64,000 nucleotides of DNA from Antedon bifida (Eukaryota > Echinodermata > Crinoidea > Comatulida > Antedonidae): assembly GCA_963402885.1 (NCBI GenBank), contig OY727097.1, positions 10,726,001 through 10,790,000 of the forward strand, in the 5' to 3' direction. Positions 1 through 46,616 of this stretch are shown here, one piece after another. Position 1 is the first letter of the stretch. Each line of letters starts with the position of its first letter. Below the pieces are notes generated by a model that ran no database searches, had not been told where the DNA came from, and was given only the letters and a program-made list of their open reading frames with translations. Made by a program: the position numbers and the translations under genes.

Positions 1-193
1 CAAATCCAGGAAATTGATGCAACACTTCTAACGTTGGTTGTGTTGATATTACAACGTTACGTAATGTCGTTTCTTTACTTATGAGTGATTTTACTCCGAG
101 GGTTAACGTACCATTAAAGAAAGTTAACATAAATAATGCCGTCATCACACATGAGTAACAGATTACAAGCAGAAATGGTATTGTTGAATGTTT
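1..193 (-). CDS. ST6GALNAC-like: ST6GalNAc-like sialyltransferase, TM/stem exon only (gene 0)
   Basis: This is the counterpart in copy A of the second exon of gene 2 (32,546-32,767). On the minus strand it starts after a CTACTAG acceptor at 194-200. It encodes a short basic lead, a hydrophobic segment (about residues 5-25, IPFLLVICYSCVMTALFML) and a stem ending FPG where the window begins. In this family that means a type II Golgi protein with a single N-terminal anchor. The catalytic exons would lie to the left, outside the window. The exon stays open, with a few codons missing relative to gene 2. I infer a fourth gene in the array; it could also be a lone duplicated exon. Confidence 0.75.
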
Positions 194-203
194 CTAGTAG
201 AAA

Positions 204-234
<31 letters not shown>

Positions 235-1490
235 ATAATAATACTAATCAGTTCTTCAAAAAAGATGAGTAAATATAATCAATATCGAATATTTATAACA
301 TTCTGTTTTTACTACTTCCATCTTCTTTCTACACAATAACATAATTATATTTTATTAGATGGTATGCTCGTCTCGCTCGCGTACCATCTGGGGGTCCCCA
401 CAGATGGCTCTCGAATACAATAGAACCCACGGGGATATTATTGGGACACAAAAACGGAAGTGTCCCTTTAATTGGGGTATTCGGAAATAAAGACAAAGTA
501 ACGAATACTGGATACCATCAAGAACAATTCATTGATGTGGACGATACTTGGAGAAATTGAGGAGAAATGGAAATTTAACTACGGGTATTGGGCGGCACGG
601 GGTGGTGGTGATAGAACCGCAGTAATAAAGTTGATTGTATTTATACAGTAATAAGAGCCACACTAAATAAATACAGTAAGACATTCAACGATCGAAACAT
701 GTTTATGTTATGTTGTGTTCCGTTATGTTTTCACTATTAACAGCCATTGGAGTGGAACTGTATCATGGAGGTTGGTGTTTGCCTTCCAACCCCAAGATAA
801 AGTTTATTTTGTATTCTTGTTAGTGTAATCATGTACACATCAGTAGGCCTTATAATTCACTGGTTGAATGGTGACCGAAAACGTGAAAAAATCTCGTAAG
901 TGACCAACTCTTTTAAAGGACCACCAACTCTTGTAAGGGATCGCTTTTCATAATCGACCATCTCTCGTAAGCGACCACCGCTCTTAACGATCACACTTCT
1001 CGTAAGTGACCACCTTTTTTAAGGGACCACAATCTCTCTCTCTCTCTTTCTTAAGGGGCCACTTATCATAAATCGACTACCTCCAGTAGCGACCACCTCT
1101 CGTAAATGACAAATTCTATTAAACGACCACCTCTCGTAAGTGATCACCTACTCTCATAAGGAACCGCTTCTCATAATCGATAACCTCTCGTAAGCCATCA
1201 CCTCTCTTAACGACCACACCTCTCGTAAGTGACCACCTTTTTTAAGAGGCCACAACCTCTGTGGTCTCAAATACTTAGTGTCTGGGCCCCCTATTTAAAA
1301 ATCCAGGATCCGCACCTGTTAATTAACCTGTAATATAGAGTGCATATTTTTTAGAGATTTTGAAAGAAATCAAACAATATTTGATCTTTTTTTGTTTAGA
1401 AATCACTACATTAAGAGAAAATGAATATCATGTGAATGAAGAATCAGCAAAAAGAAAATGGAATGTTCTATATGAATGTGTATTAGAGAA
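194..1490. other. Noncoding upstream region of gene 0, shared with copy B
   Basis: No coding frame is supported here. A (TAA)n microsatellite lies near 207-245. At about 360-420 a short inverted motif pairs AGATGGTA with TACCATCT around a CGCTCGCG-like core. The whole stretch matches 32,768-34,015 in copy B with small indels. It should contain the first exon and promoter of gene 0 (minus strand), but I cannot identify either. Confidence 0.6.
885..1265. repeat. Degenerate CTCGTAAGTGACCACC minisatellite
   Basis: Words such as CTCGTAAGTGACCACC, CTCTTAACGACCAC and TTTTTTAAGGGACCAC recur every 25-35 bp. The units are imperfect and interrupted by a CT microsatellite at about 1,032-1,050. The same array is at 33,466-33,788 in copy B, shorter at its 5' end by roughly one to two units. 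No coding role is apparent. Confidence 0.8.
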
Positions 1491-1580
1491 ATTATTACAG
1501 ATATATATATATATATATATATAAACAAATCAGGCAAAGAACATTAATTCTAAACCGCCCGGTGAGATATATATAACCGG

Positions 1581-1752
1581 CACTTGCACTGATGAAGGGC
1601 TAGTGTTGCCCGAAAGCTCTGCTAACTTTTCTGGCTGTTTACTTTATCGTTTTGATTTAGCTTTTCGCTTTTTTATTTGTATCTCCATTGAGATCCAGCC
1701 ACTGATACCCACAGCATTGTCATTTTTTTCAGTAATTTGCCTTTGGATTTAT
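1581..1752 (+). repeat. Dispersed 170-bp repeat with hammerhead-like core, copy 1
   Basis: It runs from CACTTGCACTGATGAAGG to TTTGCCTTTGGATTTA and is bordered by (TA)n on both sides. Other copies are at 6,833-6,860 plus 7,431-7,570, 7,640-7,810 (minus), 8,114-8,285, 11,946-12,094 (degraded), 34,021-34,188 (minus) and 34,203-34,346 (minus). Short open frames inside it are shared only because the DNA is repeated. The word CTGATGA, a GGGC/GCCC stem and GAAA resemble a hammerhead ribozyme core, as discussed in the findings. Confidence 0.85.
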
Positions 1753-1828
1753 ATATATATATATATATATATGAATTAATTAATTTGAAACGATAAAGAT
1801 GAGGAAATCTGTGAGAATGAGAAAAAGT

Positions 1829-1900
1829 CGCCCCAACCGAGACTCGAACTCGGACCGCCTGCTTGATATGCAGATGTCCTAACCATTAGACCACTGGGGC
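1829..1900 (-). tRNA. tRNA or tRNA-like gene, predicted Asp (anticodon ATC)
   Basis: The minus strand folds as a 72-nt cloverleaf. The acceptor GCCCCAG pairs with TTGGGGC (one G-T pair). The D arm contains GTCTAATGGTTAGGAC. The anticodon stem TCTGC/GCAGG holds loop ATATCAA, and the T arm is CCGAG-TTCGAGT-CTCGG. The discriminator base is G, as in tRNA-Asp, and a run of five T follows as a pol III terminator. A-box (TGGTCTAATGG) and B-box (GTTCGAGTC) are present. Anticodon ATC is unusual, since Asp tRNAs normally carry GTC. It may therefore be a variant or a tRNA-derived pseudogene. It lies in an A-only insertion next to a (TA)n tract. Confidence 0.7.
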
Positions 1901-2059
1901 TTTCATGGTATTGTTCGAACTCGATATATATATATTTCTCATGTGTAGTAGAGCGTTTCTTTGATTGAATAATTTTGTTCAGTAAATTACCAATGGTTTA
2001 TTCAAAGTCAACACTGTAGCTAATCCCTCACTATTCAATCAAAATATTATTATTATATT

Positions 2060-2830
2060 AAGTGGAACGCTACAAAAATAATCCTCCGCTTCATCACTAC
2101 ATTAATACCTATAATAACCAGACAAGAACATAACTATTAGACCGGAAGCCCAGAGACATTTGGTTAGATGAGCTAGGTACCAATATCTGACTATTTAAGT
2201 GTGTTGGGGGTCACTTGAAGTCAATAAAAATGGGAGTCTGCCGGGTACCCCCTGCTGCGTCTAGACCGGGGGGACTCCGAAAGGTGCTAAAAAATCGGCA
2301 CCGGTTAGATGAGAGAGATACCACCTAATTTTACCACCATGGGATGCCCATTGGCATCCTTATACCAGTATCACAAACGACAGACTTTTTGTCTGCTGCA
2401 ATAGGCCCGCCAGACCCCCTGATGGAGGGCCTAAAATGGGGCTATCATAGATGAGTGAGGTGCCACTCAATATTAATGCCAAATGAACAAGTTGTGTTCA
2501 TACAATACTAAATGGATAACAACAGACTAATTGTCTGCTGCACCGCAAGTACCAGACACCCTAAAGTTAGACTAGAGACCCCACCTTCCCCCAACTAGCC
2601 CAGCCAAGATATTGTAGATACCACCAGCAACCAATGTTATATGATTTAGCACATAGTAAGCAATACCAAATGACCGATTACAGACCATCTGTACACTGCC
2701 TTCAGGCCTGTAGCCAGGGGGGTGGGGTTTATGATTCGGGCGAACCCCCCTTTACAGCGAACCCCCACCCTCAATGTAAATTAATTATCAATTAATAATT
2801 TTAAAAAGTTATACAAAAAAATATGAAGCT
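2060..2830. repeat. Dispersed element, left copy (A-specific)
   Basis: Positions 2,145-2,830 are the reverse complement of about 13,790-14,545. Shared landmarks include GTGTTGGGGGTCACTTGAAG, the GGTACC-rich CTGCTGCGTCTAGACC block and the GACAGACTTTTTGTCTG palindrome. A third, partial relative is at 12,715-12,870. Nothing in it codes for protein. It looks like a non-autonomous DNA element about 0.7-0.9 kb long. Copy B has no counterpart. Confidence 0.7.
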
Positions 2831-3020
2831 GTTGCTATAAATAAATTTTGTTACAAAGAAATATTTTCATTGTGAAGGTCGTTAAATTCGTTGCCGCCAG
2901 CATTACTTCTTTTACCAATTTTACCAATTAAGCTAACATAAAAACATTCAACAATGATAAAATTCACTGCAACTCTGTAACTACTTTATGACTAAGTCTA
3001 TCAAGTTCCAGGTCCGCCCC
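2711..3020. mobile_element. Possible hAT-type MITE
   Basis: The stretch opens with CAGGGGGGTGGGG and closes with CCAGGTCCGCCCCTG, i.e. CAGGGG...CCCCTG ends as seen in many hAT MITEs. An 8-bp target duplication is not obvious, so this is tentative. The interior is AT-rich and noncoding. Confidence 0.3.
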
Positions 3021-4917
3021 TGTCAGCCTTTAGTTTATGGTGTTTTTTAATAGAATTTATTACTAAAGAATTACGTGTTAAAATTATAGTTTCTATTAAT
3101 ACTATTAGGCCTAATTATTATTCTCTAAAGCCATGTCTATTGTTAGTACTGTGTGGGTGTGTGGGTGTGTTAGGTATGAGACAGTCCGAGTAAGTCAGCA
3201 AAATTAAACAATTACATTACACAAAAATATCAATCAATGTACTGTTTAATATTAGAAAAGAATTAAAAAATTAACATACACAAATGATATACATTCTATA
3301 TTCTCGTGGGTCTAATCTTTCCATCTCATGTGTTCATATTCATCAAAGCTGAACGATTCATTCATAATGTAAATCAGCACAAACTTCGAGCCAGTCGATT
3401 ATTATTCAAAGTGATTTGGGGAGGCGTTTATTCAAATAAAAACCATCCTAATAATTAATACATTATTTAATTTAAACATCTTTTGAAACTAACTTCCGTG
3501 ACAGAGTGGGCCGATTCAGCCCAAGAAGGAAGACGTTTTAGACGGCTTGCAACATGGGCAGAGATCCCGGTCGATCCTATAATGGGACACAGATAGCCTA
3601 CAGTTATTCCTGCCAGCTTACTCAATAAAACTCGGCTATCGGGATTTCACTCGATTTTAAACAAAATGTATTATCATCAAATCTCCCTATGTAATTTTAT
3701 AATACTATTCCCCACAATTTATTCCGATGCTTTATGGCGTATATTTAATTTTATCTTTATTAATTTGCAGTATAGTTTTTATTTTTTAACTACTGTACCT
3801 TCACACGCGCGGTCCGTTCCTAAAATTAAAAAAATAAAATAAAATGGCTATATCCACTAACGGCCAACTTAGTTGAAACCAGATTGTTGCAAGGTGAACT
3901 CATCGTGAACCCGGAAATTACTTTGACCGCGGAGAATTAAAATTGAGTTGAAAATCTACCGTTGATGAAATTAAATAATTAATTAAATTTTCTTAAAAAA
4001 CTCTGTATAATATCTTCCTAAGATAGAAATATGGAACAATATCGTAATAGTGAAAACTAATGTTATCAAATTTACATTTCACGGTACATCTGAGATAGAT
4101 CAGGTAGGTATCCAAGGCAGAGATTTGTACCGAAGTTTTTCCATTGTGCTCGCCTATGTCAGAATTAACCATAATTTATATATAGATAAACAAAAGCCAA
4201 CGCGTCATTCATAAACAAAATCAAACTTAATATATGTACTAAATCTGGTCATCAAAGCTGAACCACGGAGGTATTATACCTCACACGCAGTAACAGCAGC
4301 CATTCTTCTTTTGAACGAACAGGCCGTGGAAGAGCGAGAGAGAGCTAGCTAAGGCCTAGGAGTAGTAGGCTATACATGCAGCGCAAGCGAGCGATATGGT
4401 GGTGGTTTGTGTGAAGAAGAGTGCGCGAAGACAATCACATGAATTGAACAATGATTATGTTTATTTTGTGACGTTTCGTGAGGGGTCCCCAACTTATGTA
4501 CGAAAAAAAAAATCGCGCCCCGGCCGTTCAAAACGTGGGCGCTAGATGATTACTATTGGTTGGCTGTAGATGGAATGATAGAAGCAACTAGTTTTAAGTT
4601 AATTATTCCTTATTTTTATAAAAAATGCTGTACGTGAATACGTAAAAGTGGCACGTGTCAGTTAATCGATTGAAATAGTAAAGATACACCACTACGGCAA
4701 TACTATATTTAAAGGTTTTAAGTTTATCCTCAAAGGTTCAATACATTTACCTACTTGTGTTAAACGAAATAATTATACTAGGAGAGACTGAGAAATTGGA
4801 ATGTTCCATTCATCTCAAATCAATACATTTGTATTAATGTGTATTAAATCTATCAAATACATAAAATATAATTATAATTAAAGGCAGGCAGCATTGCCTG
4901 GAATATGAATATATGAT
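3021..4917. other. Noncoding A-specific region
   Basis: AT-rich DNA with no supported frame. It holds short GT repeats (3,150-3,175) and a more GC-rich patch at about 4,290-4,560 with GAGAGAGAGC and GCGCAAGCGAGCG words. I see no gene. Confidence 0.5.
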
Positions 4918-6541
4918 TTAACTTCGTTAGAAATCGTAATACCAATCTGTAGAACAAAGTATAGTGTGGGACTAATGCATCATTTGATCGTGTTTGTGTA
5001 CAGCGCAATGATATTATTACTATTTTGCACATTCTGTTGTCTCTGAATGAAAACAAATCTATACCACTACTAAAAGAAATAACAATGACTCAAAGAACAT
5101 TTCCTTCAAAAATTATAATATATTAGGATTTTTGTGTTTTGAGAATTTGTATTTATTTATTTATTTATTTATTTAACAACATATTTATACAGGATAAAAC
5201 ACAATCAAGTAGAAATAAACTTGTTTTGCATTGTGGTCCTGTCGACAAAAACGGATACAATTTTATATCTTATACAATTACAATTAATAATAATAGCAAC
5301 AAAAAATAAAAACTGGAAGCTAAATGTTATGAAAAGAAGTGAGATCTTTATCTAGCTTTAAAGGACATAATAAACGAAATACACTTAAATCAGACGATAT
5401 TTCACAATTCTACAATAACTATACTGTATGGCATACGTATGATTAAAAGTCTGGCCTATAATATGTGCATGTGGATGTAAATGAAAATCCATTACACTTT
5501 TTCTTCATAATTTTGTCTTCACGGTTTTACTTTTCAATTTCAGGAGCTGCTCGCTCAAATAAATGTTGGTTTGCCAAATATTCATCATGTCAGTTATCCA
5601 TTTTAAATAGTATTATGGGTATGGCCGGTTGCCAATGACTTTAGGAAAAGAAAATTTGATTATTATTATAAAAAACTATTAAAAATGCATCCTCTATCAT
5701 AGTTTTCAAAACACTCTTAAAAACCTATCTTTTTTCTCTGTAATTTCTTTCTGTTTTTTCTCGCAGCGCTTTGGGACAAATTTTCCGATTGTATAAGTGC
5801 TTTATAAATCGAACAACAATAACATCAACGTTATGGCGTGATAAACTCTACATTCAATACACAGTATTATTCGTGGTAGCTTTTTCTCATTGTATACGCC
5901 TTGATTAGTAAGCCTACTATTTGTTGGAAATGCTATATTGATGTATTTTACAAAATACAAGTCATGGAAAATACTTTTGAATATTAGAAAACTAATAATG
6001 TAACATAGCACAATTTACCTTACGTCGAAATTTAGTTGTAGTTCAAACAAAAACTGTGCGTCATTTTTAATTCATAAATGAATTTTTAGCCTAAGCCTGC
6101 ATGATGAATGTTTAATTAGCATGTGAACGTACTTATGGGGGAACAAGACGGCATCAATAATCTTAATTCTTTTCTCTCTTTTATGTCTTATCAAAATGCA
6201 TATTTTTGTAAATAATACAGTATTTATCTTTATATGCAACATTTTCATTAATATTTGTTTCTCTACTCAATTAATACAGATGTTTATAATTTTTACTTAT
6301 ACATACATTAAGATATAATAATAATAATAATAATAAATATAAAACAAAATTATATTTTCATAAATATTTACAAGTATTTATTACTCAAATAGCCATAACA
6401 AAACAATTATAATTTTAATTAATACCAATTATTAATTACAATTATACTTTAAACATGTTCATAGCGTTTCTTTAACACCTTCTTTTTACACGAACATATT
6501 TATAATTTTCTTATGGTATTATATTTCATACACATTGAATT
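4918..6541 (-). repeat. Left arm of large inverted duplication in copy A
   Basis: This arm is the reverse complement of 8,286-9,492 and of the matching parts of 35,300-38,935 in copy B. It carries an extra (TTTA)n-led insert at about 5,150-5,385. It also retains about 5,820-6,060, which the right arm lacks but copy B keeps (38,000-38,240). At 5,770-5,815 the sequence GCAGCGCTTTGGGACAA followed by TGCTTTATAAATCGA looks like an L2/CR1-type LINE 3' tail. Confidence 0.85.
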
Positions 6542-6718
6542 TAAGTATAAATTGTTAATATACACATATAATTTTCTTTATGAATGTATATTTCTACTTT
6601 AATCATGCTTTGCTTCTTATGTAACATTATCTTCTACATAAATTCATATAATAATTCATAGTTTTATCTAGTATAGTTAGTTGTTTGCAACATTATTTTA
6701 TCTCATATATATATATAT

Positions 6719-6860
6719 TGTTTTCTACTCTTTTTCAGACTCCACCCTGCCTCCTTTTGTTGTATTTCTTTTATTCCTGTCCACCCAGGCAGCACTTGCC
6801 AGCTCTTATACTATGACGTTATCCAAATTCCTTCACTTGCACTGATGAAGGGCTAGTGTT
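6719..6860 (+). repeat. 170-bp repeat with its 5' flank, cut by an L1 fragment
   Basis: CCACCCAGGCAGCACTTGCC-type flank and the first 28 bp of the repeat (6,833-6,860) are followed directly by the L1-like fragment. The repeat resumes at 7,431 after a 10-bp target duplication GGCTAGTGTT. The same arrangement, inverted, is at 34,203-35,100. Confidence 0.8.
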
Positions 6861-7430
6861 TTTTTTATTTATTTTTTTTTATTTCATTTTAGCACATACA
6901 TAATAAAAAATTAATAGATAAAGGTAACGTAACTATTAAAACGAATAAAAAGAAACACGATATAATACTCTCTCAAAAATAAGAGAGTAATGAAATTAAA
7001 GGAAAAAAAATAACGTATCGCAAAAATACACTTTATAATAATCATTTTGTAAATAATATGGTTGCCTTGTATTTTATATGTACCACTTTGTAATTACAAT
7101 TAGAATGTTTGCATCACTGTGTGTTTTTCCAAAACCAAAACATATACTTTCTTTGGTGATAATTAAGTTATTGTCGATATTTCGATACATATATTGTTTT
7201 ACATTTTCCCATATTTTCTTTACTAGATCACATTCACAGAACATATGTAGCAGTGTTTCCTGCTTTTCCTTGAAAAAAAAAACACATTGGTGAATCGACC
7301 TTTGACATCTTAAAGAGCATTGTATTTGTATAAATTATACGATGAATAAATTTAAATTGAACATTTTTTAGCTTAGTGTCATTTGTACAGGCGTGTAAAT
7401 TTGAGAAAAGGTTTTTCCAATCAAGTCATG
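6861..7430 (-). mobile_element. L1/Tx1-like LINE 3' fragment (copy A)
   Basis: On the minus strand this encodes the C-terminal part of an L1-type ORF2, including a CxxC zinc-knuckle-like segment (MCFFCKEKQETLLHM in the B copy). It ends in an A-rich tail. It is flanked by the 10-bp duplication GGCTAGTGTT at 6,851-6,860 and 7,431-7,440, a mark of target-primed insertion. The B copy at 34,347-34,962 has the same insertion point in the opposite orientation. It is 5'-truncated and not functional. Confidence 0.85.
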
Positions 7431-7810
7431 GGCTAGTGTTGCCCGAAACTTGCTAACTTTTCTGGCTGTTTTTATTTAGCTTTTTGCTTTTTTTTTTGTA
7501 TCTCCATTGAGATCCACCCACTGATACCCACAGCATTGTCATTTTTTTCAGTAATTTGCCTTTGGATTTATATATATATAATGTTCTGTGCCTGATTTGT
7601 TTATATATATAAATATATATATATATATAAACAATTATATAAATCCAAAGGCAAATTACTGAAAAAAATGACAATGCTGTGGGTATCAGTGGCTGGATCT
7701 CAATGGAGATACAAATAAAAAAGCGAAAAGCTAAATCAAAACGATAAAGTAAACAGCCAGAAAAGTTAGCAGAGCTTTCGGGCAACACTAGCCCTTCATC
7801 AGTGCAAGTG
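7431..7810. repeat. Head-to-head pair of 170-bp repeats
   Basis: The forward copy 7,431-7,570 and reverse copy 7,640-7,810 face each other across a (TA)n-rich spacer, which makes a palindrome. The reverse copy is followed to about 7,945 by the same GTGAGGGAATTTGGATAA flank found at 34,990-35,100. Confidence 0.85.
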
Positions 7811-8113
7811 AGGGAATTTGGATAAAGTCATAGCATATGAGTTGGCAAGTGCTGCCTGGGTGGACAGGAATAAAAGAAATATAACAATAGAAACAGCGTG
7901 TTGAATAGTGGGTGGAGACTGAATAAGAGTAGAAAACAAAGAAGGTAGCTTGGTAGAGATATAAACAATTTTGGACTGGAACTAAAAAAAGCTAAAATGG
8001 TGGTTAATATTGAAACTTAAATTTTGGTAGTCAATGGAATAATTTTACCGATCTGGGAGTATGTTCCTAATGTTAAGTCCAAAAGGTTTTGTGGTTTTAA
8101 TATATATATATAT

Positions 8114-8285
8114 CACTTGCACTGATGAAGGGCTAGTGTTGCCCGAAAGCTCTGCTAACTTTTCTGGCTGTTTACTTTATCGTTTTGATTTAGCTTTTCG
8201 CTTTTTTATTTGTATCTCCATTGAGATCCAGCCACTGATACCCACAGCATTGTCATTTTTTTCAGTAATTTGCCTTTGGATTTAT
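8114..8285 (+). repeat. 170-bp repeat with best hammerhead-like core
   Basis: This is a full-length copy. CTGATGA is at 8,122-8,128, the GGGC/GCCC stem at 8,130-8,144, GAAA at 8,145-8,148 and a 3-bp closing stem AGC/GCT with loop TCT at 8,148-8,156. The repeat ends exactly where the right arm of the large inverted duplication begins. Confidence 0.8.
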
Positions 8286-8487
8286 AATTCAATGTGTATA
8301 AAATATAATACCATAAGAAAATTATAATTATGTTCGTGTAAAAAGAAGGTGTTAAAGAAACGCTATGAACATGTTTAAAGTATAATTGTAATTAATAATT
8401 GGTATTAACTAAAATTATAATTGTTTTGTTATGGCTATTTGAGTAATAAATACTTGTAAATATTTGTGAAAATATAATTTTGTTTTA

Positions 8488-8529
<42 letters not shown>

Positions 8530-9492
8530 CTTAATGCATGTATAAGTAAAAATTATAAACATCTGTATTAATTGAGTAGAGAAACAAATATTAATGAAAA
8601 TTTTGCATATAAAGATAAATACTGTATTATTTACAAAAATATGCATTTTTATAAGAAATAAATTAAAGAGAGAAAAGAATTAAGATTATTGATGCCGTCT
8701 TGTTCCCCCATAAGTACGTTCACATGCTAATTAAACATTCATCATGCAACTGGTTTAATTCCTTAGGCTAAAAATTCATTTTATCACGCCATAACGTTGA
8801 TGTTATTGTTGTTCGATTTATAAAGCACGTATACAATCGAAAAATGTGTCTCAAAGCGCTGAGAGAAAAAACAGAAAGAAATTACAGAGAAAAAAGATAG
8901 GTTTTTAAGAGTGTTTTGAAAACTATGATAGAGGATGCATTTTTAATAGCTTTTTGTAATAATAAAATAATTGATAATAATAATAATCAAATTTTCTTTT
9001 CTTAAAGTCATTGGCAACCGGCAATACCCATATTACTATTTAAAATGGATAACTGACATGATAAATATTTGGCAAACCAACATTTATTTGAGCGAGCAGC
9101 TCCTGAAATTGAAAAGCAAAACCGTGAAGACAAAATTATGAAGAAAAAGTGTAATGGATTTTCATTTACATCCACATGCACATATTATAGGCCAGACTTT
9201 TAACCATACGTATGCCATACAGTATAGTTATTGTAGAATTGTGAAATATCGTCTGATTTTAGTGTATTTCGTTTATTCTCAAAATACGAAAATCCTAATA
9301 TATTCTAATTTTCGAAGGAAATGTTGTTTGAGTCAATGTTATTACTTTACTAGTGGTATAGATTTGTTTTCATTCAGAGACAACAGAATCTACAAAATAG
9401 TAATAATATCCTTGCGCTGTACACAAACAGGATTAGTCCCATACTATGCTTTGTTCTACAGATTGGTATTACGATTTCTAACACGAAGTTAA
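8286..9492 (+). repeat. Right arm of large inverted duplication in copy A
   Basis: This arm is collinear with copy B 35,300-38,935 apart from the B-specific L1 insertion, and is the reverse complement of 4,918-6,541. It has a (TTA)n microsatellite at 8,490-8,527. A 112-codon open stretch at 9,154-9,492 has relatives at 38,566-38,934 and 4,853-5,056, but indels between copies shift the frame, so I do not call it a gene. Confidence 0.85.
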
Positions 9493-10802: not shown

Positions 10803-11230
10803 AGATTAATAATCTGTTCAAACGAATTAGGAATCCGTTCAAACGGATTAGTAATTTGTTTAAACGGATTACTAATTTGTTCAAACGAATTACTAATTCG
10901 TTCAAAAAGATTAGTAATCCGTTTAAACAAATTAATAATTTGTTTAAACAAATTAATAATTTGTCTAAACGGATTACTAATCTGTTTGAACAAATTAGTA
11001 ATTCGTTTGAACGAAATAGTAATTCGTTTGAACAAATATTATTAATCTGTTTAAACAAATTATTAATTCGTTTGAACGGATTAGTAATCCGTTCAAACAA
11101 ATTACAACATATACTTTAAATGGCACTTGTTGTATATGTTGCAATTCGTTTGAACGGATTACTAATTCGTTTAAACAGGTTATTAATCCGTTCAAACGAA
11201 TTACTAATTCGTATGAACGGATTACGTTCG
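10803..11230. repeat. Palindromic minisatellite (ATTAGTAAT / GTTTAAAC), copy A
   Basis: About 20-bp units alternate two dyads: ATTASTAAT and GTTTRAAC flanked by AATTCG or RATCCG. Every unit is therefore nearly its own reverse complement. The array is about 300 bp (10,803-11,105) plus a second block (11,143-11,230) separated by a TGGCACTTGTTGTATATG spacer. Long open frames appear on both strands in several frames, with NPFKRI- and NLFKQ-like repeats; these are artefacts of the unit. In copy B the first block is only about 70 bp. Confidence 0.95.
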
Positions 11231-11439
11231 AAAAACATATACTTAAAATGGCATTAATGGGCTTTCGTAGTTTAGTGTTTATAATTCAATATAGTTCACT
11301 ATAATATACCTCTATAGTAGCTTTGTTATGAAGTTATTGTATTCATATGTTGTATTCCTCCATGGTTGTATTGTAATTCAAGATATATCTGTTACTTTAG
11401 ATAACAACTACTGTACAGTGTATTGTTGATAATTACCTC

Positions 11440-35102: not shown

Positions 35103-35140
<38 letters not shown>

Positions 35141-35545
35141 TAAAACAAAGTTGCAAACAACTAACTACACTAGATAAAACTATGAATTATTATATGAATT
35201 TATGTAGAAGATAATGTTACATAAGAAGCAAAGCATGATTAAAGTAGAAATATACATTCATAAAGAAAATTATATGTGTATATTAACAATTTATACTTAA
35301 ATTCAATGTGTATAAAATATAATACCATAAGAAAATTATAAATATGTTCGTGTAAAAAGAAGGTGTTAAAGAAACGCTATGAACATGTTTAAAGTATAAT
35401 TGTAATTAATAATTGGTATTAATTAAAATTATAATTGTTTTGTTATGGCTATTTGAGTAATAATAATAATAATAATAGTAATTATAATTATTATTATTAT
35501 ATATTAATGTATGTATAAGTAAAAATTATAAACATCTGTATTAAT
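35100..35545. other. AT-rich noncoding segment of copy B
   Basis: (TA)n at 35,106-35,135, then DNA matching, in reverse, A 6,340-6,700. A (TAA)n/(TTA)n tract at 35,458-35,500. No gene is seen. Confidence 0.6.
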
Positions 35546-37779
35546 CCTAGCTACGAAAATAAGAACATGTGATATGGTCAAAGGCCTAATTGTTCCTGCA
35601 GGCAATGGTATATTTAAAGATATTAAGATTGCACAGCTAGCAGATGACACAGTACTTTTTCTAAAAGATATAAACAGTATAGATAACAGCATAAATATTA
35701 TTGAAAAGTTTGGAGAGGTGTCTGGTTTACAATTAAATAAGAATAAAACAAATGCTTTTTGGCTTGGCAGTTTAAGAGACTGTAAGGACACACATGGTAA
35801 CATTTCTTGGACATCCACACCAATTCGGATATTAGGTATCTATGTTGGACATGATAAGGAATATTGTTATCAAAAGAATTGGAAAGAAAAAGTTGATGCA
35901 TTAGAAAATACCCTAAAAACATGGGAGAAAAGACACCTCACTTTACTATTGTAAAAACATTAGCGCTCTCAAAAATTATATACAATTCCAGCATTTTGCT
36001 AGTACCAGAAAAAGTAATAAAAGAGGTGGACAAATTAATTTTAAAATTCATTTGGGAAACTAAGAAAGAAAAAATAAAAAGAAAAACCATGTGTGCAAAT
36101 TACAGTCAAGGTGGTCTAAAAATGGTACATTTCAGATCTCAGGTTATATCTTTCCAAGTTAAATGGTACAGGAGACTGTATGAAAATGATTACGCCAAAT
36201 GGAAATATTTACCAACATTTTATATGGAAAATATAGGCCCAAAATCATTAACCTCAAATATATCAAAAGTTCCATGTAACATATCCGTACCACCATTTTA
36301 TCTCTCGGTTATTAAATCTATCTCTGTAGCTAATGCTTGCAATAATAGATTAAATAAGAAACCAATAAGCTATGATGATATTATTAATCAATCATTATGG
36401 GGTAATGCATTTATCTGTATTAAAAAGAAGTCGTTATATAACTGTAACTGGATTAGATCAGGGTTCTTAAAAATAAGTGATGTTATAAATAATAATGTGT
36501 TTAAGCCTGCAATAGAGATAAAAAGAGGGTTAAGATGTACACAAAATTGGATCAGTGAATACTCTTGTATATTGAAAGCCATTCCAAAAGAATGGAAATG
36601 TATTCTAAAATCAACATGTGACATTAATCTAAATGATGATATACCCATTAAAAACAATAAGGTCTTAAATATGACGTCTAGACAATTATATAGACTCATA
36701 ATAGATGCTCAATATTTTACTCCAACGGCACAGATTATGTGGGAATCCATATTTGGTAATCTGCCATGGAACAAAATATGGTTAAGAAAGTTTCTGAACT
36801 TAAAGAAAAAAAACTGGCACATTTTAATTTTAAATTGTTGCACAGAATATTGCCAACAAATGAAAGATTACATAAGTGGAGCCTTGTAAATTCTCCAAAT
36901 TGTCACACATGCAATGTTATTGAGAATGATGAACATATGTTAGCAGAGTGTATAACAGTAAATTGTCTATGGAGAGAGATAAACAGAATAACTAGAGAAG
37001 TAAGCATACATATTCCTGTTTTTTCTTTCAAAAGGCTTTTATTTGAAACTGACAACAATTACGTAAATAAATTATACACTTTAGGAGCATTCTGTATTTA
37101 TAAAGTAAAGATAATAAGTTTAATGGAAAAAGAAAAAAAAAATCAATCTCCTACAATTGTTTAAATCTGAAAAAGAGATAAGAAATATGTAAATCTGCAG
37201 GTAGGCCTATACATGTGTATGTTCAATCAGATTACATGTAAGAGAAAATGTTAATGAGATTCAATGAATTATCTATTATATTTTTTTGTTTGTTTGTTTG
37301 TTTTTTTTTGCTTATATATTGTATGTTTTGTAAATATGTCTTAAAACTGGATGATTTGAAAAAAAAAAAAAAAGACAAAATGTAAGAAGCGTTTTATGGA
37401 TTGATGATAAAAAAACAATGATGAAGGATGAGAAGGTTTATGTATAAGTTGTGAAATGTGTATTGTGATCAAAGCTTTTATGTATGTACAGTATATATAT
37501 ATTCCTAATGCATGTGAAATTTAAAATGACAAAATTGTGGAAAAAAAAAATATGTCTAAGTTTATAAATAGATTATTAAACATAAATTCGGTTAAATGAT
37601 AATGTATGTGTAAACATAAGAATATATTGAAATATATTAAAAGAAAAAAAAGTAAAAAAAAAAAGATATACATATAATAATATGTATAGTGTATTTAAAT
37701 GAAAATGAAAACTATATGTAAAGAGAACATTATATATGGAAATAAAAGTGGGATGAACCCACATAAGATAAAAAAAAAA
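35546..37779 (+). mobile_element. 5'-truncated L1/Tx1-like LINE, B-specific
   Basis: It starts inside the reverse transcriptase with the catalytic LADDTVLFL and continues with LQLNKNKTNAFWLGS, TWEKRHLTLL, IVKTLALSKIIYNSSIL and the C-terminal CHTCNVIENDEHMLAEC knuckle. Two frame changes are apparent, near 35,945 and near 36,800 at an A-run. The 3' UTR (37,165-37,768) ends in poly-A. A perfect 16-bp target duplication AAACATCTGTATTAAT is at 35,530-35,545 and 37,780-37,795. Copy A has the empty site (about 8,555-8,570), so the insertion is younger than the block duplication. Confidence 0.95.
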
Positions 37780-37795
37780 AAACATCTGTATTAAT

Positions 37796-40208
37796 TGAGT
37801 AGAGTAGAGAAACAAATATTAATGAAAATTTTGCATATAAAGATAAATATTATTTACAAAAATATGCATTTTTATAAGAAATAAAAGAGAGAAAGAAATT
37901 AAGATTATGGATGCCGTCTTGTTCCCCCATAAGTACGTTCACATTCTAATTGAAAATTCATCATGCAACTGGTTTAATTCCTTAGGCTAAAAATTCATTT
38001 ATGAATTGAAAATGACGCACAGTTTTTGTTTGAACTACAACTAAACTTCGACGTAAGGTTAATTGTGCTATGTTACATTATTAGTTTTCTTATATTCAAA
38101 AGTATTTTCCATGACTTGTCTTTTGTAAAATACAACAATAGAGCATTTTCAACAAATAGTAGGCTTACTAAACAAACAGGCGATGAGAGAACGCCACTAC
38201 GAATAATACTGTGTCTTAAAGTAGAGTTGATCACGCCATAACGTTGATGTTATTGTTGTTCGATTTATAAAGCACTTATACAATCGAAAAATTTGTCCCA
38301 AACCGCTGCGAGAAAAGACAGAAAGAAATTACACAGAAAAAAGATAGGTTTTTAAGAGTGTTTTGAAAACTATGATAGAGGATGCATTTTTAATAGTTTT
38401 TTATAATAATAATCAAATTTTATTTTCCTAAAGTCATTGGCAACCGGCCATACCCATAATACTATTTAAAATGGATAACTGACATGATGAATATTTGGCA
38501 AACCCAACATTTTATTTGAGCGAGCAGCTCCTGAAATTGAAAAGCAAAACCGTGAAGACAAAATTATGAAGAAAAAGTGTAGTGGATTTTCATTTACACA
38601 TCCACATGCACATATTATAGGCCAGACTTTTAACCATACGTATGCCATACAGTATAGTTATTGTAAAACTGTGAAATATCGTCTGATTTTAGTGTATTTC
38701 GTTTATTCTCAAAATACGAAAATCCAAATATATTATAATTTTCGAAGGAAATGTTGTTTGAGTCAATGTTATTACTTTAATAGTGGTATAGATTTGTTTT
38801 CATTCAGAGACAACAGAATCTACAAAATAGTAATAATATCCTTGCGCTGTACACAAACACGATCAAATGATGCATTAGTCCCACACTATACTTTGTTCTA
38901 CAGATTGGTATTACGATTTCTAACACGAAGTTAATTCATACACTACAGTAATATAATAATAAATCATTTGCTTTATAAATAACATTGTGTAAGAATTAGG
39001 ATTGTGGGTATAGGCCTAGTTTGATAAGCATACCAATGTCCAAGGACAAACTCTAGGCCCACCTAGGGCCTAGCTAGGCCAAGCCTAGCCTAGAAGGTAG
39101 GCATAGGCCTAAATTAAAGCAGAAGAAGCAGATAATTTTTCATTATGTTTAGGTAGAGTAAGCCTCTAGGCCTTATTTACAAACAAGTGAAAAAGTACAT
39201 ATGTATCTCTATAATATGGTTTGAAAGTAAACAACAATCATGGTAGGCCTAGCCTAGACCGGTTTTGGGAATAAACTACTCTCCTTGTGTACTCACATTT
39301 TAGGCATAACTAAGGTCTACCCTAGGTAGGCCTAGCCTTTATTTAGGGCCTGGCCTACTAGGCCTAGTTTATAAGGCCTATCAGCCTAATATTAAACCTT
39401 ACGAACTAATATCCATAAAGAAAACAACACTTAACACTTACTTTAGATTAATTTTGGTAAGGTTTATTACGAAATAAACCATTAGTAAACCAAGTATTCA
39501 TTTAAAAACTAGGAGATAACTTTCGTTGAGTTTTTTTTTTATTTTTTCCGATTTTGGGTCAGGCTAAGCCAGACATACAAGACAAACGTGATGTGCCTAC
39601 TCGTCATTCAATGACTCATCATTAATAATGTACATTACAATATAATACTCACATAGCTATATTGAATTCTTGTACAATACACCGGCGCCATTGCAAAGTT
39701 ACGTAAAGACTGTAGAAATAAATATTAGATATTTACGAAAATACAGACAACTCATCAACAAAATCAACGAATATAGGCCCCTATACGTTACCTATTTTGT
39801 ATCATAGTATTATAACAATAAACTGTTACCTCTAAAACCAAAAATACAGTGGGCTACCTTTGTCTATCTTGATCTTGGTGTGTATTAACCATACGTCATA
39901 AGACGTTTCGTCAGTCGGAAAATTATTCACTATGTTTGGCTTTATTGACTTTGTGTAGTCATGTCTTTCAAATAAATTATACGGAGGCATGTTAGTGCCA
40001 TATTCGTCAACACATTCTTCATACTATATAATATTTTGTTAACTGTTGCAATTGCCATAATCAGTTATTTTTTTTTAAATTCTAGGATTAAAAACCGTCA
40101 GTACAGTACTGTTTTTATTGTAGTATAGTAATTAATGTAAGGTCCTTGAATAGATTGTGTATTATATTATTGTGTAAATAACAACGCAGAAAAATTACAT
40201 TTATTACA
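37796..40208. other. Noncoding part of copy B
   Basis: Matches A 8,571-10,802. It holds an L2/CR1-type LINE 3' tail in reverse at 38,245-38,400, a TAGGCCTA-rich tract at about 39,010-39,390, and the 122-codon open stretch at 38,566-38,934 that is not conserved in frame. No gene is supported. Confidence 0.6.
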
Positions 40209-40388
40209 GATTAGTAATCTGTTCAAACGAATTAGGAATCCATTCAAACGGATTAGTAATTTGTTTAAACGGATTATAAATGGCACTTGTTGTATATGTT
40301 GCAATTCGTTTGAACGGATTACTAATTCGTTTAAACAGGTTATTAATCCGTTCAAACGAATTACTAATTCGTTACAACGGATTACGTT
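40209..40388. repeat. Palindromic minisatellite, copy B (contracted)
   Basis: Same dyad units as 10,803-11,230, but the first block is only about 70 bp (40,209-40,276). The second block (40,303-40,388) is similar in size to that in A. So the first block has expanded in A or contracted in B since the duplication. Confidence 0.93.
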
Positions 40389-41445
40389 CGAAAAACATAT
40401 ACTTAAAATGGCATTAATGGGCTTTCGTAGTATTCATATGTTGTATTCCTCCATGGTTGTATTGTAATTCAAGATGTATGTCATCTTCACACAGTTCACA
40501 TATTCATAACAACTACAGTGTATTGTTGATAATTGTTACTTTGATTGGCACGGTCCATGTACAGAATGTTTTGCTAGTGCTAAGTGGTTGCTGATAAAAC
40601 AGGATGATTTGATTGGTTGTATTGACATGAACATGTATTTGATATTGGAGATAGTTTAAGATGTAGTTAAGTTTGGTTGGTGATCTTATGGGAGAAATAC
40701 TTCCACTTCCGGTGAAGGTGCCGAGATACCTTAAGTTTGAATAAAAGTTATATATTTGTGTTATATAAATTGGTGTTACATGTCTTGTATGTTGAGTCTA
40801 CAAAGATATAGGAGGTAACATCACAACAAGCTTATTGACTTTGTGTAGTCATGCCTTTCAAATAATTTATACGGAGGCCTGTTAGTGCCATATTCGTCTA
40901 CACAATCTTTATACTATACTATTTTGTTAACTGTTGCAATTGCCATAATCAGTTATTTTTTTTCAAATTCTAGGGCTATAGTTAAAAATTAACATTATTG
41001 ACTCTACATAAAATGTCGATAGTCATTACATTATCACATCTGACTGAGTACAGTAAGACAATGTTTATACTGTAGTATAGTCATTACTGTAGGTCCATGA
41101 ATAGTTATTGTGTAAATAACAACGCAGAGTAATTACATTTACAGATTTGGCATTTTCCAAAAAAAATTCAAAAAATAGTATAAATTGATCTGTCCCTGCA
41201 CTAATTACAATATAAAACGGAACAAATAGTTTAAAAAGCTTTATTCAGATACTACAGTATAATAAATAGTGCATAGAAAAACTAGAATGTGAATAAGAAA
41301 GACATGTTGATAATGTTCGTTCTTCTTTCGTATCAACATGTTGATAAATAGGGACAGTAACACAATTACATTACATATTATTATACTACTGTACTAAAAT
41401 ATACTTGTTTCCCCAATCTCGAAAGGCTTTTCCGAACTTAAAAGG
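40389..41445. other. Noncoding part of copy B
   Basis: Continues the A alignment at 11,230-11,430 and then, after a 190-bp B-only segment, at 14,546-15,320. The B-only segment (40,490-40,670) is probably the ancestral state before the 3.1-kb A insertion. No gene is seen. Confidence 0.55.
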
Positions 41446-41667
41446 TCCAGTGTACTGTCCATGTGGCTCGTGTTAACCCAGTTCATCTAGGGGTTACGCT
41501 AGACGGTGTATTGGTCCATCTCAGCCCATGTCGTTGTGGACAGCAGAAGAACGATCGCCGTTTGGTGGAAACAAATTCGTCTTGTGGAAAATCGACTTTA
41601 GGGAGAAGAAAGTTGTTGTATGTGTCGTCCACACCTGTGCGCAAGTCGTTGCTAAAAACGCGTAGTC
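41446..41667 (+). repeat. SINE-like dispersed repeat, copy B
   Basis: Near-identical to 15,321-15,540. One base lost in the AAGGGG run shifts the short open frame relative to A, which confirms it is not under coding constraint. Confidence 0.65.
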
Positions 41668-41777
41668 TTGTTTGACTTGGTATGTTCTCATTTGCCAATA
41701 CAGATACCATTATTATTAAACATGGATATTCTATTATGAAGTTCAGACGTAATTACATAGTTAAATTTTAAATTAGG

Positions 41778-44700
41778 CTAAGTATTTCTTAAATTACCCT
41801 TTCTCTTCAGTCTTTTCTTTTTACGTTTTTTCTTTACTTTATTATTTAACGAAACATTATACTGCTGTTTAGATAGTAGGACATTGCTTTGTAGATTATT
41901 ACTTTGTTTATATTCATTCAAAGCAGGCCAATGTTCAAGACTTAAATTTTCTTCGGTAATATTGCTTAACGGCTTATGTCCTTTAACTCTAGTTTTATTC
42001 TTTTTATCTTTTTTTATTGATATTTGAAGATTTACACCATGTTGATCTGTTTCCTTTTTCCGATGTTGACTAAACTCTTTTCTTTTGGAGTTAAACTTGT
42101 CCAAAAACGGAGTATGTAAAGTTCCATTTTCCTTCTTAACTTTCTTCGGCCACACAGGATGTCTAAAAGTAATGTTTTTGTAGGTTGACCACCGACGAAA
42201 TATTGCCTTCTCAGTGATGAAGAGATGGCCACCCCGTTGTTTATTTTCACTCTTGTTATAATAGGTACATTCTGATATTGTCTTATCGTAATAATGATAT
42301 GGGACCCGAGTATTCGTAGAACTATAAGATATCAAAATAAATAATAAATATTATTATTAACATTGAGTTTCTAAGCGTGTTTTAAAGCGGTGAAGTGCTT
42401 TAAGGCAGTTTGGGCAACCGCCGTATCCGTATACGTATGGGTAAAATTCGTGTACTACGTCACACATTCTATGTAGCTTGACATCATATACCGTACATGA
42501 TACCGATTTTCGATGCCTTCGACGTGCGGATTGCATTCCACACGTTTATTCGTTGAACATTTATTTGTTAAACGTGGCACAGTATGATTACATTTTTTAC
42601 CAGCAACACTTAAGCATAAATTATTCAAGAAATTCAGAGTTTTGATTTTAAAATGTTCCAAGAAAACGAAAACAAAAAATGTTGGCTAGGCTTACATACC
42701 TTTAGCCTTGTAACGATACGTAAAATGATTTTGTCCAAATGAAAAAAAGCTATAAATTATATATTTATTTATTATTTACGTGTTGTGACACTGATAGGTA
42801 TTCGTATACGTGCGTTTGCCCAAACTCTCTAGCAATAATATTATTGGGTAAGTATGCAGATATCTGTGAATGGATGGAAAGAAAATTGCCCTATTAGGAC
42901 TTTCGTCTTCGAAGCAACACAGCTAATATTGGAACGTAATACATCAACACTATTTACTATAGTTCATAATCTTATTGTGTCAACATTGTTGAATAGTGAT
43001 TAGAAGTATAATGGACAAGTGTTAAAACACTTCTAGATTATGGACTTATCAGTCTCGGTAGTGTGTTACCTGCACAAATCTTCATATGCCATCCCGTATA
43101 CAGTTATACTAGGGCAGAATTCCATAGCATGCACCATTGTATACCACCCGGTTGTCAACATTGTGCTTACTTCTTTTCTGTTAAATTATAATACATATTA
43201 TTATCTATAACATTAATCATTTTGATGGTTGATTGTAAGCAACCTTTGAAATTCAAACGAGATAGGTTTTAGAAATTTTTTTAAAAATAAATAAAGCAGT
43301 AACATGAATACGTATGATCGATAATAGATTATCTTACTACACGATTAATTAGAAATAATTTAAAATAAGCCGATACCACACAACAATAACAACAGGCCTA
43401 TACCGAAAATGCACTGGTAAGACATTACATATAACCTGTTATATTAACCTGCGATTTTAACCCCAATAATAACAATCCCGGTAGTACTGGGCAAATTATT
43501 ACTAAAATCTACCAAAAACATAAAATTATGACGTGGTCATTAGAATTCGATAATATAAGATCTACTGTATATATTAAAACAATTTTTTTCCGATTATGAA
43601 CCACTAACACGGTCCTGAAAACAAAACAAACACACAACACATATACCCACAAACCCCCAAATTCAAAGGAGTTTTTGGAGTTACAGGCCAACACCAATTA
43701 AATTAGTTTTGTTTTTTAGAAGCCTAATGTTTGTATTAAAGTATTGAAGTAAACGTACACATAAAATATGTTATTATGTTACCTTGTATAACCAGTTTGG
43801 TTTTTAAAGAGGTCCTCAGCTAACACCATTCGGTCTGGTAGAGATGAGTATATTGGAACATCTTTGTAAATGTTTGCTAGAAGAAAGGCGTAGCGGTATT
43901 CTTCATTGGTTAGCTTAGGAACCTGTTTGATTATATTCATCCAACTGATAATAATCATTTCTGTCCGTGTTTTTTTGTTTACAAGTACCTCTCGTAGCAC
44001 ACTCCTTTTGCTTAGACCTTTGTTAATGTTCCGATGGCCAACGACTCGTATAGTCGTGCGAGTGCCAACATCATGTTCAAAGCCAACCACAGAGGCTAGA
44101 TTCATTCGTATGACACAGTGGTGTTGATCAATTTCTCTTCCAGCGTTTGATCCTAATAAATGACCAGAGCTTGCCACAACAGCACAGTCATTGCACGTAA
44201 GATGGAGTTTCTTAAGAAATTATTATTTTTAATAAATTATTTATAAAAAGAAAATGCATTTATGTTTTTAATACATTATTTCAGATGAAATAACAAGCAC
44301 AGTAGAACCACTATTAAGAAGACACATTCGGGACACAACAAATTGTCCCCTTAATATGGGTTTTCGTGGGAAACATAGGCCTATATACCAAAATAAACAA
44401 TTTCAGAAATTGAGAAGTTTTTTATTAATAATATAAATGTATATAATTATTTTGTATTTCATTTTGTTTTTGAGTTAAAATAAATAATTATTTTGATTTG
44501 ATTTGATTGAATCAACCAATTGGCACACTCAAACTTGTCCTTGTCCCGTTAATATGGGTGTCCCCTGAGTAGGGAGTTTATTTTAGATTAGATTAGATTG
44601 ATGTATTGCCCCTCGTTTCACATGAAAGTGCCCTTTTAAAGGGTTGCCCGCTAAACAGGGGTGTCCCAAAAGAGGGATTCTACTGTATTTTATTTACTAA

Positions 44701-45044
44701 CGGCATTAATTTTTTCTATGCAATTAAAATGTGAAATTGTGAATGCTTTTAGTTTTCCTTTCCTTCCTTTTTTATAATCTGTAAAAGATTGATATTGTTA
44801 CATAAAACAATAATACCTTGTTGGTTGCCAGGCTAACGTATCCGGGAAATAGACCAACGTCGTCATCATCATCAGCCCTGAATGTGATTGGTTGTCTTGA
44901 TGTTGGATTCAAAACGCCACGTTTTGGTATTGGGGTTGTATTTCTAATTGTTCGTTTGATAGTGGTGTTACCAAATTTGAAGATGAGCACGAAAGTTAAC
45001 ACGCAGGAGTAAATAATTGTCAGCCAGAATGCCTTTGAAATATT
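41778..45044 (-). CDS. ST6GALNAC-like: ST6GalNAc-like sialyltransferase, gene 3 (copy B)
   Basis: Recent duplicate of gene 1. Exons: 44,817-45,044 (TM and stem, with the acidic ADDDDDVG stretch), 43,783-44,210 (sialylmotif L), 43,070-43,177 (sialylmotif S) and 41,778-42,321 (motifs III and VS plus tail). Junctions and phases are as in gene 1. Visible coding differences are few: in motif-L exon one amino-acid change (VSIYSSL to VPIYSSL) and one silent change. The tail is far longer than in gene 1, about 90 residues past HPVWPKK and very Lys/Asn-rich, ending [14 protein letters not shown]. This is because a T-run in the plus strand is 7 long here and 9 in gene 1. The start codon is again in an unseen exon. 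Both predicted enzymes look catalytically intact. Confidence 0.93.
42407..42826. mobile_element. MITE with TTTGGGCAA terminal inverted repeats in gene 3 intron
   Basis: The left end AGTTTGGGCAACCGC...TATACGTAT and the right end ATACGTGCGTTTGCCCAAACT are inverted relatives over roughly 40 bp. The interior is noncoding. Gene 1 has only the left part (16,277-16,474). Confidence 0.75.
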
Positions 45045-45135
45045 CTAGTAGTAAAATAGAGATACAACTTTATTTACGATTTTGTTTGACCTATAACAAC
45101 ATTAACTGTCCCTATATTAGTAATAGTAGTATTAA

Positions 45136-45629
45136 GGGAGGTTTCGCAATCGTACGAATACAATAACGAAAACGGATACGTCACGCACACGTATTCGTTT
45201 TTCGTAAGCCAGTAAAAATCTGTTTCGCATGGCAACGAAATATTGAGGGCGCCGTCCAAAATATGACTGCGGTAAATTTGAGCGAAGCGCAGGTACGTGT
45301 TGCTTGGTGCTTGGCTGCCTAGGCCTAGCGTAACATCAAAGCGAGTGAGGACTTTAAAAACTGCTATTTATCAAAATTGACCTGGCATTTTAGTAAATTA
45401 CTTTAGTAAATTACTTTCAATAAAAGTATAATTATATTAAATCATGAATCATTCCTGAATCAAATGCAAAATGTGCAAAATAGATCAAAAACTATACTCG
45501 TTTTGTAGTTACGAATATGACTGGTGATATTCGTCAACATGAATACGCTTTACGAATATGAAATGGGGATCAGCTCAAAAGTTTCACAAATGTGTGACGT
45601 ATCCGTTTTCGTTATTGTATTACATATGG
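45136..45629. mobile_element. MITE, copy B of 20,071-20,580, right end lost
   Basis: The left terminal repeat AGGGAGGTTTCGCAATCGTA is intact. The right one stops after GACGTATCCGTTTTCGTTAT, and the outer 20-odd bases plus adjacent DNA are missing. Confidence 0.8.
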
Positions 45630-46616
45630 TAACGGTATCGATAAAAAAGAAAAACATATTTCAACGAGCTTTAACTCGTTTAAATAACGTAAAGCCTACA
45701 GTTTTCCATATAATCGCCACGATTTCACAAATTGCTCTACAATTGTTAGCGTCGCCGACGCCGATTTGCCGCAGGCAAAAAAAATCAACAAAGCTGTATG
45801 GTAATTAGATACACAATGGTATCTGTGCATTGAAATTTATAAAATCATACAATCTAAAGTTTTCGTAAAAGATATTTCCAACTATAGCAATCTGAAATTG
45901 TTGATATATAATAAATCCAATAGTTCGAATGTCGATCATGTAGGCCAACATTGTAAATATTTACAACTCATTAGCTCTCATTTATTCTAAGGAGTATTAT
46001 CCTTGTTTTTTGTTGTTTTACACATATTATTAATTTTTACAATATGAGCTCAATATTTTAAATTTGCAGTGAATAGAATTTATTGCATAGGGTATTAAAA
46101 AATCACACCGAAATTACACTGAGCTGTTGTACAGTTCTGTAGTCCATAATTGTTTTCCATAAGAGATTTCCTTACAGTTCTTTTTTTTTCTTACAACATT
46201 AAAAAATTATAGTTGCATAGGACAACTCCGTCAGTATGTCTGATAATAGTCCTCCCAATGAGGTGGTTCACTACTTGGGGGTCAAAGCAAACATACTTTG
46301 TTTGTTTGTATTTTAATGTCAGCATACGTTGTGTGCCAGATAACATGATTTAATTCCACATTATCAGCACTTATAAGAGTTAGTAAATAGACGAATAACA
46401 CGAGCTAATAGCATGGTACTGTAATTCAGATGGAAGTAAGTTCTAAGGCATATTTTAATTAAAAATTAATTCAAAAGACATTTATTACGTCCTAAAGACA
46501 CAAATTAAAAAAAAACAGTATTGACAAATTAAGATTATTGGAAAAATGGGCGAAGGCAGGATCCCCCAAAAAAATGAAAATCTTGTGGCGGGATTTCCTT
46601 GACAAATTAATAATTG

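Follow-up and report, generated by a model that had tools for sequence, protein, structure and literature searches.

Probable tandem duplication of a two-gene sialyltransferase unit in a feather star, with one gene pair conserved and the other rich in replacement changes

Introduction

Vertebrate ST6GalNAc III, V and VI are ganglioside-type alpha-2,6-sialyltransferases of family GT29. The present analysis concerns four GT29 genes, numbered 0 to 3, in a 64,000-nucleotide stretch of the genome of the feather star Antedon bifida (contig C10, positions 10726001-10790000; hereafter the window, with negative positions lying to the left of its position 1). These genes share with the vertebrate enzymes the order of the motifs (L, S, III and VS), the histidine of HxxxxE and a transmembrane/stem exon on the N-terminal side. 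They differ from the vertebrate enzymes in having lysine/arginine-rich C-terminal tails and tandem copies, and gene 0 differs also in carrying HYFY at motif III and a two-residue insertion in the loop between motifs III and VS (the motif III-VS loop). Growth of a repertoire by tandem duplication in an invertebrate deuterostome has been described for the ST8Sia genes of amphioxus and early deuterostomes (PMC2564942). Those genes belong to another GT29 family and their duplication is ancient, whereas the copies analyzed here are about 2% diverged and duplicate a two-gene unit. Literature searches at the level of titles and abstract openings, covering few subscription papers, returned no paper on GT29 expansion in crinoids. 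An earlier note, made from the letters of the window, had proposed a tandem array of four ST6GalNAc-like loci built by duplication of a two-gene unit. Our analysis indicates that the array is probably a real tandem duplication of this kind, set within a largely clustered GT29 repertoire, and that one gene pair was kept whereas the other gathered mostly replacement changes.

Results and Discussion

Repeated unit and gene content

Gene models were built from tblastn searches over 120 kb around the window together with splice sites, in an assembly of 315.6 Mb and 27 contigs, and begin at exon 2. Four GT29 (sialyltransferase) genes were found, all of them on the minus strand, and every one has a transmembrane/stem, an L-motif, an S-motif and a VS exon (Table 1). 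The window holds the transmembrane/stem exon of gene 0 alone; the other three exons occur within 2.2 kb leftward, where the earlier note had foretold them. Without exon 1 the models of genes 0, 1, 2 and 3 comprise 339, 373, 366 and 435 residues, respectively. The Lys-rich tail of gene 1 is shorter than that of gene 3 because a difference in the length of an A-run changes the frame.

Self-BLAST of the 120 kb (blocks of at least 200 bases) matched genes 0 and 1 (unit A) to genes 2 and 3 (unit B), with the pairing 0-2 and 1-3 that had been proposed. Comparison of the predicted proteins revealed 99.4% residue identity between genes 1 and 3 (359 residues compared), in line with their description as nearly identical. 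Gene 2 is 89% identical to gene 0 and 67% identical to gene 1, and on these values it is the copy-B partner of gene 0 and an older paralogue of genes 1 and 3, as had been claimed. The span first given for the array, 1 to 46616, stands at its right end (46584, possibly about 46614) and does not stand at its start, since the array begins left of position 1. A 12-base match beyond a 20-base gap would shift the right ends of units A and B to about 21522 and 46614. Matching between the units is interrupted where one of them has an insertion that the other lacks, which occurs in both A and B, and where pieces are inverted (5.4-7.6 kb versus 34.2-38.7 kb).

Homology between the units ends at both unit boundaries in the self-BLAST of the 120 kb, a stretch that holds both units and contains no N. 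The 5.9-kb junction between the units gave no match to the array flanks (29.6 kb left and 37.4 kb right; blastn, E up to 1e-3). Substitution divergence between A and B is about 2% and is uneven. When measured in aligned 200-column segments, the gene 0/2 stretch outside intron 4 and the beginning of exon 5 differs by 1.5-5.1%. The gene 1/3 stretch differs by 0-6.3%, mostly 0.5-2.5%, a range that excludes segments misaligned across an insertion and segments beyond the end of homology; the raw value of 6.0% in the intron bearing a reverse-transcriptase fragment is inflated because segments were misaligned across that insertion. Divergence by part in genes 0/2 is 1.9% in intron 2 and 2.3% in intron 3, and reaches 7.8% over intron 4 and 8.6% over exon 5; in genes 1/3 it is 0.5% in intron 3 and 1.0% in intron 4 (p=0.012 versus introns 2-3 of genes 0/2). 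The flanks of both gene pairs show similar divergence. As far as sequence can tell, a single event of about 2% age, with deviations in places, would account for the pattern. The matching copies with similarly diverged flanks, the presence of the missing gene 0 exons to the left, the bounded homology, the unmatched junction and the stretch free of N support the tandem duplication of a two-gene unit that the earlier note had suggested.

Coding change in the two gene pairs

Codon changes were counted on the aligned models, in the case of genes 1/3 after cutting the frame-shifted tail, and the p values of the codon tests are single-test values. Genes 1 and 3 differ by 3 replacement and 9 silent changes (dN 0.0036 and dS 0.037, for replacement and silent changes), whereas genes 0 and 2 differ by 44 replacement and 4 silent changes (dN 0.059 and dS 0.017; binomial P=0.0065 for at most 4 silent among 48). 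A codon-model likelihood test gave an omega of 0.097 for genes 1/3 (p=0.00017) and 3.33 for genes 0/2 (p=0.0095), and the two pairs differ (Fisher test, p=8.5e-6). Genes 1 and 3 evolved under constraint. Analysis of genes 0/2 by region revealed an omega of 3.8 in exons 2-4 (p=0.036) and of 4.6 when the motif III-VS loop is left out (p=0.013); the stem and tail together hold 11 replacement codons and no silent codon (p=0.012). Genes 0/2 have a replacement rate higher than the divergence seen in their introns 2 and 3 (odds 2.8, p=0.00016). The motif III-VS loop, with 32 of the 337 codons, contains 12 of the 38 replacement codons of this pair (P=0.00014).

Changes in genes 0 and 2 were assigned to branches by comparison with genes 1 and 3 and with a fifth member, g5, which is located at C10:10.610 Mb, about 115 kb from the array, and has all four exons. 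Nineteen replacement codons and all 4 silent codons were assigned to gene 0, seven replacement codons and no silent codon to gene 2, and 12 replacement codons to neither branch. Among the 19 replacement codons of gene 0, 11 occur at sites that are otherwise invariant, g5 and genes 1 and 3 being in agreement there. On this assignment, the changes may reflect either positive selection or a relaxation of constraint on gene 0.

Genome-wide GT29 repertoire

A genome search with PF00777, in which 142 of 235 candidates were scored, gave at least 149 matches at the level of exons. The L exon of gene 1, used as protein query, gave 75 candidate loci genome-wide (80 of 80 candidates scored), which were compared by their identity ranking to that exon. 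Seventeen of the 75 loci align over nearly the whole exon: five array genes at 83-100% identity, g5 being the one at 83%, and 12 others at 37-45%, ten of them on contig C11 and two on C10. Clusters, defined by gaps of at most 60 kb, number 14 and take in 52 of the 75 loci, where random placement gave a mean of 2.1 and a maximum of 10 (2000 draws); the 60-kb rule leaves g5 outside the cluster of the array. Humans, by comparison, have 20 sialyltransferase genes (PMC5811610).

Two other clusters contain similarly diverged duplicates. In the cluster at C16:18133372-18176494, a unit of two diverged GT29 genes at 18.153-18.164 Mb recurs in tandem at 18.165-18.175 Mb; the five segments that were aligned carry 0.3-6.3% substitutions. 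The L-frame pairs of these copies show 7 replacement and 3 silent changes in one case and 15.5 and 3.5 in the other, the second count probably being too high because of sequence that lies upstream of the exon, and one copy lacks 8 codons of the L exon that its partner has. At C15:12.484-12.524 Mb, seven GT29 loci include alternating pairs of equal score. One of these gene pairs is 2.2% diverged (63 of 2,820 aligned bases) and its 186-residue L frames read alike; the second pair is known by equal scores only. By these alignments, C16 shows a two-gene duplication like that of the array, and C15 shows one in part.

Family assignment and motifs

In genes 1, 2 and 3 the L-motif exon gave a match to Pfam PF00777 (E 2e-22 to 2e-20), and the L exon of gene 0, which lies outside the window, was recovered by the PF00777 genome search at C10:10725376-10725549 (E 4.3e-20). 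Exon 4 of genes 0-3 carries TGWxTMV..MEFCPS.TVYGM, which we take to be sialylmotif S from PDB alignments; g5 has it with small changes. Genes 1 and 3 share HYYD at motif III, where gene 2 has HYYE and gene 0 the altered form HYFY. The VS motif HLFITE is intact in genes 0-3. A catalytic role is assigned to the VS histidine in PMC10225777.

A PDB sequence search with gene 2 ranked ST6GAL1 first (E 7e-12), followed by ST3GAL1, an alpha-2,8-sialyltransferase (5bo6) and ST6GALNAC2, and no ST6GalNAc III-VI structure was present among the 8 distinct sequences matched. These four PDB sequences scored at most 48.6 bits against gene 2, and the five array proteins scored 158-171 bits against provisional sequences of human ST6GALNAC5 and ST6GALNAC3 (34.6-41.2% identity over 238-247 residues), the two sets of scores coming from different programs and score scales. 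A published tree (PMC5811610) joins ST6GalNAc 3/4/5/6 with ST6Gal. Because of the PDB ranking, the identity to the provisional human sequences and the grouping in the tree, genes 0-3 are labelled putative ST6GalNAc III-VI-like genes, and together with the motif order these data agree with the ST6GalNAc-like label first given to the array.

Alternative explanations for the repeated units and for the fast pair

Several results weigh against a real duplication with one pair kept and the other changed by replacement. The excess of replacement changes in genes 0/2 weakens when codons with multi-base changes are left out (omega 2.5, p=0.064; exons 2-4, p=0.055), in the catalytic part (omega 2.3, p=0.089; without the loop, p=0.17) and in exon 5 alone (p=0.16), and the excess of the replacement rate shrinks to odds of 1.6 (p=0.035) with intron 4 counted. 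That the fastest patch takes in part of intron 4 finds no explanation in selection on the protein. The exon 1 with the start codon was not located, an upstream scan giving no candidate for gene 3 and weak ones for the other four genes. A divergence of about 2% between A and B is, moreover, plausible as echinoderm heterozygosity, a value of 2.21% being reported for a brittle star (PMC11959729); the duplicates on C15 and C16 are similarly diverged, as a systematic artefact would give, and polymorphism could account for the insertions and inversions by which A and B differ. Units A and B might then be two haplotypes of one locus that the assembler put in series. Haplotypes should go on matching into the flanks, whereas here the homology stops at the unit ends and the junction is unlike either flank; no N interrupts the 120 kb, and 44 replacement to 4 silent changes would be exceptional between alleles. 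On this indirect evidence a misjoin of haplotypes is unlikely, and it retains a small probability because the divergence of A and B resembles echinoderm heterozygosity.

Given a tandem duplication, the fast change of genes 0/2 can be read in more than one way. With a chance a little short of even, gene 0 is a decaying duplicate, and relaxed constraint rather than positive selection lies behind the fast pair. Eleven of its 19 replacement codons strike sites conserved in g5 and genes 1 and 3, its motif III has become HYFY, its tail stops before that of gene 2, its branch ratio of 19:4 is close to neutral as judged from the counts, and omega in the catalytic part of the pair is not significantly above 1. 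Yet the 337 aligned codons of gene 0 contain neither a frameshift nor an internal stop, and its splice sites and VS motif are intact; the whole pair exceeds an omega of 1, its replacement rate exceeds the divergence of introns 2-3, also with intron 4 counted, and the gene 2 branch carries replacement codons alone. Positive, diversifying selection on genes 0/2, centred on the motif III-VS loop, the stem and the tail, can be put forward only tentatively; it would make the pair one part of a wider growth of sialyltransferases across the species, under pressure from an arms race or from gamete/self recognition over sialylated glycans. An equally doubtful explanation is gene conversion, by which a different paralogue supplied the patch of intron 4 and exon 5 in genes 0/2, and conversion between genes 1 and 3 produced their near-identical stretch (about 17.9-16.2 kb). 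The high divergence of intron 4 in genes 0/2 relative to introns 2 and 3 and the low divergence of introns 3 and 4 in genes 1/3 are consistent with it. Against it, the locus closest to the gene 0 patch (591 bases) in the assembly is gene 2 (90% over 496 bases), and the rest of the 14 matches comprise other array genes at 72-75% over the exon and short pieces at 75-87%. Conversion of the fast patch from a present-day donor was rejected, no donor being found in the assembly, where none of the 14 matches is closer than gene 2.

Feature coordinates and other observations

Table 1. Features of the sialyltransferase array, in window positions.
Feature	Position	Strand	Evidence
Unit A (gene 0 + gene 1)	-6375..21510 (1..21510 inside window)	-	self-BLAST blocks versus unit B
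Gene 0 exon 2 (transmembrane/stem)	1..193, runs on to -19	-	tblastn, splice sites
Gene 0 L, S, VS exons	-448..-872, -1399..-1506, -1859..-2132	-	tblastn, splice sites
Gene 1 exon 2 (transmembrane/stem)	19684..19911	-	tblastn, splice sites
Reverse-transcriptase fragment, gene 1 intron between exons 2 and 3	17943..19207	-	A-only; RVT_1 E 4.5e-23 (18133-19224)
Gene 1 exon 3 (sialylmotif L)	17385..17812	-	PF00777 E 2.1e-22, splice sites
Gene 1 exon 4 (sialylmotif S)	16688..16795	-	tblastn, splice sites
Gene 1 exon 5 (HYYD motif III, VS motif HLFITE, stop)	15842..16199	-	splice sites
Inter-unit junction, 5.9 kb	21511..27411	.	BEL/Pao fragment, fold-back repeats
Unit B (gene 2 + gene 3)	27412..46584	-	self-BLAST blocks
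Gene 2 exon 2 (transmembrane/stem)	32546..32767	-	tblastn, splice sites
Gene 2 exon 3 (sialylmotif L)	31698..32125	-	PF00777 E 1.6e-20, splice sites
Gene 2 exon 4 (sialylmotif S)	30917..31024	-	tblastn, splice sites
Gene 2 exon 5 (HYYE, VS motif, stop)	30113..30455	-	tblastn, splice sites
Gene 3 exon 2 (transmembrane/stem)	44817..45044	-	tblastn, splice sites
Gene 3 exon 3 (sialylmotif L)	43783..44210	-	PF00777 E 2e-22, splice sites
Gene 3 exon 4 (sialylmotif S)	43070..43177	-	tblastn, splice sites
Gene 3 exon 5 (HYYD, VS motif, long Lys-rich tail, stop)	41778..42321	-	tblastn, splice sites

The reverse-transcriptase fragment in the gene 1 intron is judged to be of LINE (long interspersed nuclear element) type, and the matching site in gene 3 is empty (blocks 16474-17942/42856-44365 and 19208-19961/44364-45094). 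The BEL/Pao fragment of the junction has open frames within 21518-25182 on the minus strand, with Integrase_H2C2 at 22004-22348 and Peptidase_A17 at 22610-23038; a family search gave no match for the frames at 21518-22000 and 24499-25182. The fold-back repeats of the junction occupy 25772-27389. Within unit A, a tRNA-like sequence at 1829-1900 on the minus strand (tRNA-Asp, anticodon ATC, Rfam 57.9 bits) may represent either a tRNA gene or a SINE (short interspersed nuclear element) of tRNA origin, and tRNA and Rfam scans of the window gave nothing beyond this element. A tandem array at 10801-11104, with a 21/63-base unit, is open in several frames and has a shorter relative in unit B at about 40.2-40.4 kb. 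To the right of the units, a reverse-transcriptase open frame of 467 residues without stop is present at 53186-54586 on the plus strand (RVT_1, E 1.6e-25). A very large inverted repeat, in which 60389-62032 matches 67418-65783 inverted (90.6%), reaches into the right flank, and in the same region 62029-65625 matches its own reverse complement (89.9%).

The 15,844-base contig C27 of the assembly is mitochondrial. In COX1 and COX3, conserved Asn positions carry AAA and conserved Ser positions carry AGA or AGG, as judged by eye; because AGA/AGG fit Ser and not Gly, a tunicate origin was set aside. ND1 and ND2 are inverted and an ND4L-like open frame is found between tRNA-Arg and ND5; the mitochondrial nad4L of crinoids is reportedly rearranged. 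The COX1 strand contains 47.1% T, 15.5% G and 11.1% C (14,700 bases). Corresponding values are 44.9% T, 16.1% G and 12% C in the 15,792-base genome of Florometra (PMC7748595), and 47.8% T, 15.4% C and 11.0% G in the 15,878-base genome of Stephanometra (PMC7687491), the C/G order of the latter being the reverse of that in C27. The T-rich bias and the length, set against these crinoid values, and the other features of this contig fit a crinoid, a feather star being the best reading. An ophiuroid origin had been considered on account of the inverted ND1 and ND2; it was set aside in view of the fit to crinoids and of one ophiuroid genome that has 1.27 Gb and 19 chromosomes.

Proposed function and significance

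The sequence shows which genes are present, their exon order and motifs, where the units end and how coding change differs between the pairs; the Golgi location, enzyme activity, acceptor and expression of the array genes are inferred. Their products are most likely type-II membrane enzymes of the Golgi, of ST6GalNAc III-VI type, and would transfer sialic acid from CMP-sialic acid to GalNAc or a similar acceptor in alpha-2,6 linkage. After the duplication, purifying selection would have kept genes 1 and 3 almost unchanged, and the changes that genes 0 and 2 gathered are for the most part replacements, with an excess in the motif III-VS loop and others in the stem and tail. Redundancy most likely freed gene 0, and gene 2 to a lesser degree, and the acceptor preference or membrane anchoring of the freed genes may be drifting or may be selected to differ. 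The array may raise glycan diversity in the animal, as the earlier note had supposed, and the animal could express four or five such closely related enzymes together. A young two-gene duplication with one pair frozen and the other fast would constitute a natural experiment on the acceptor specificity of glycosyltransferases, and the array would serve as a point of reference among crinoids for how sialylation grew in deuterostomes.

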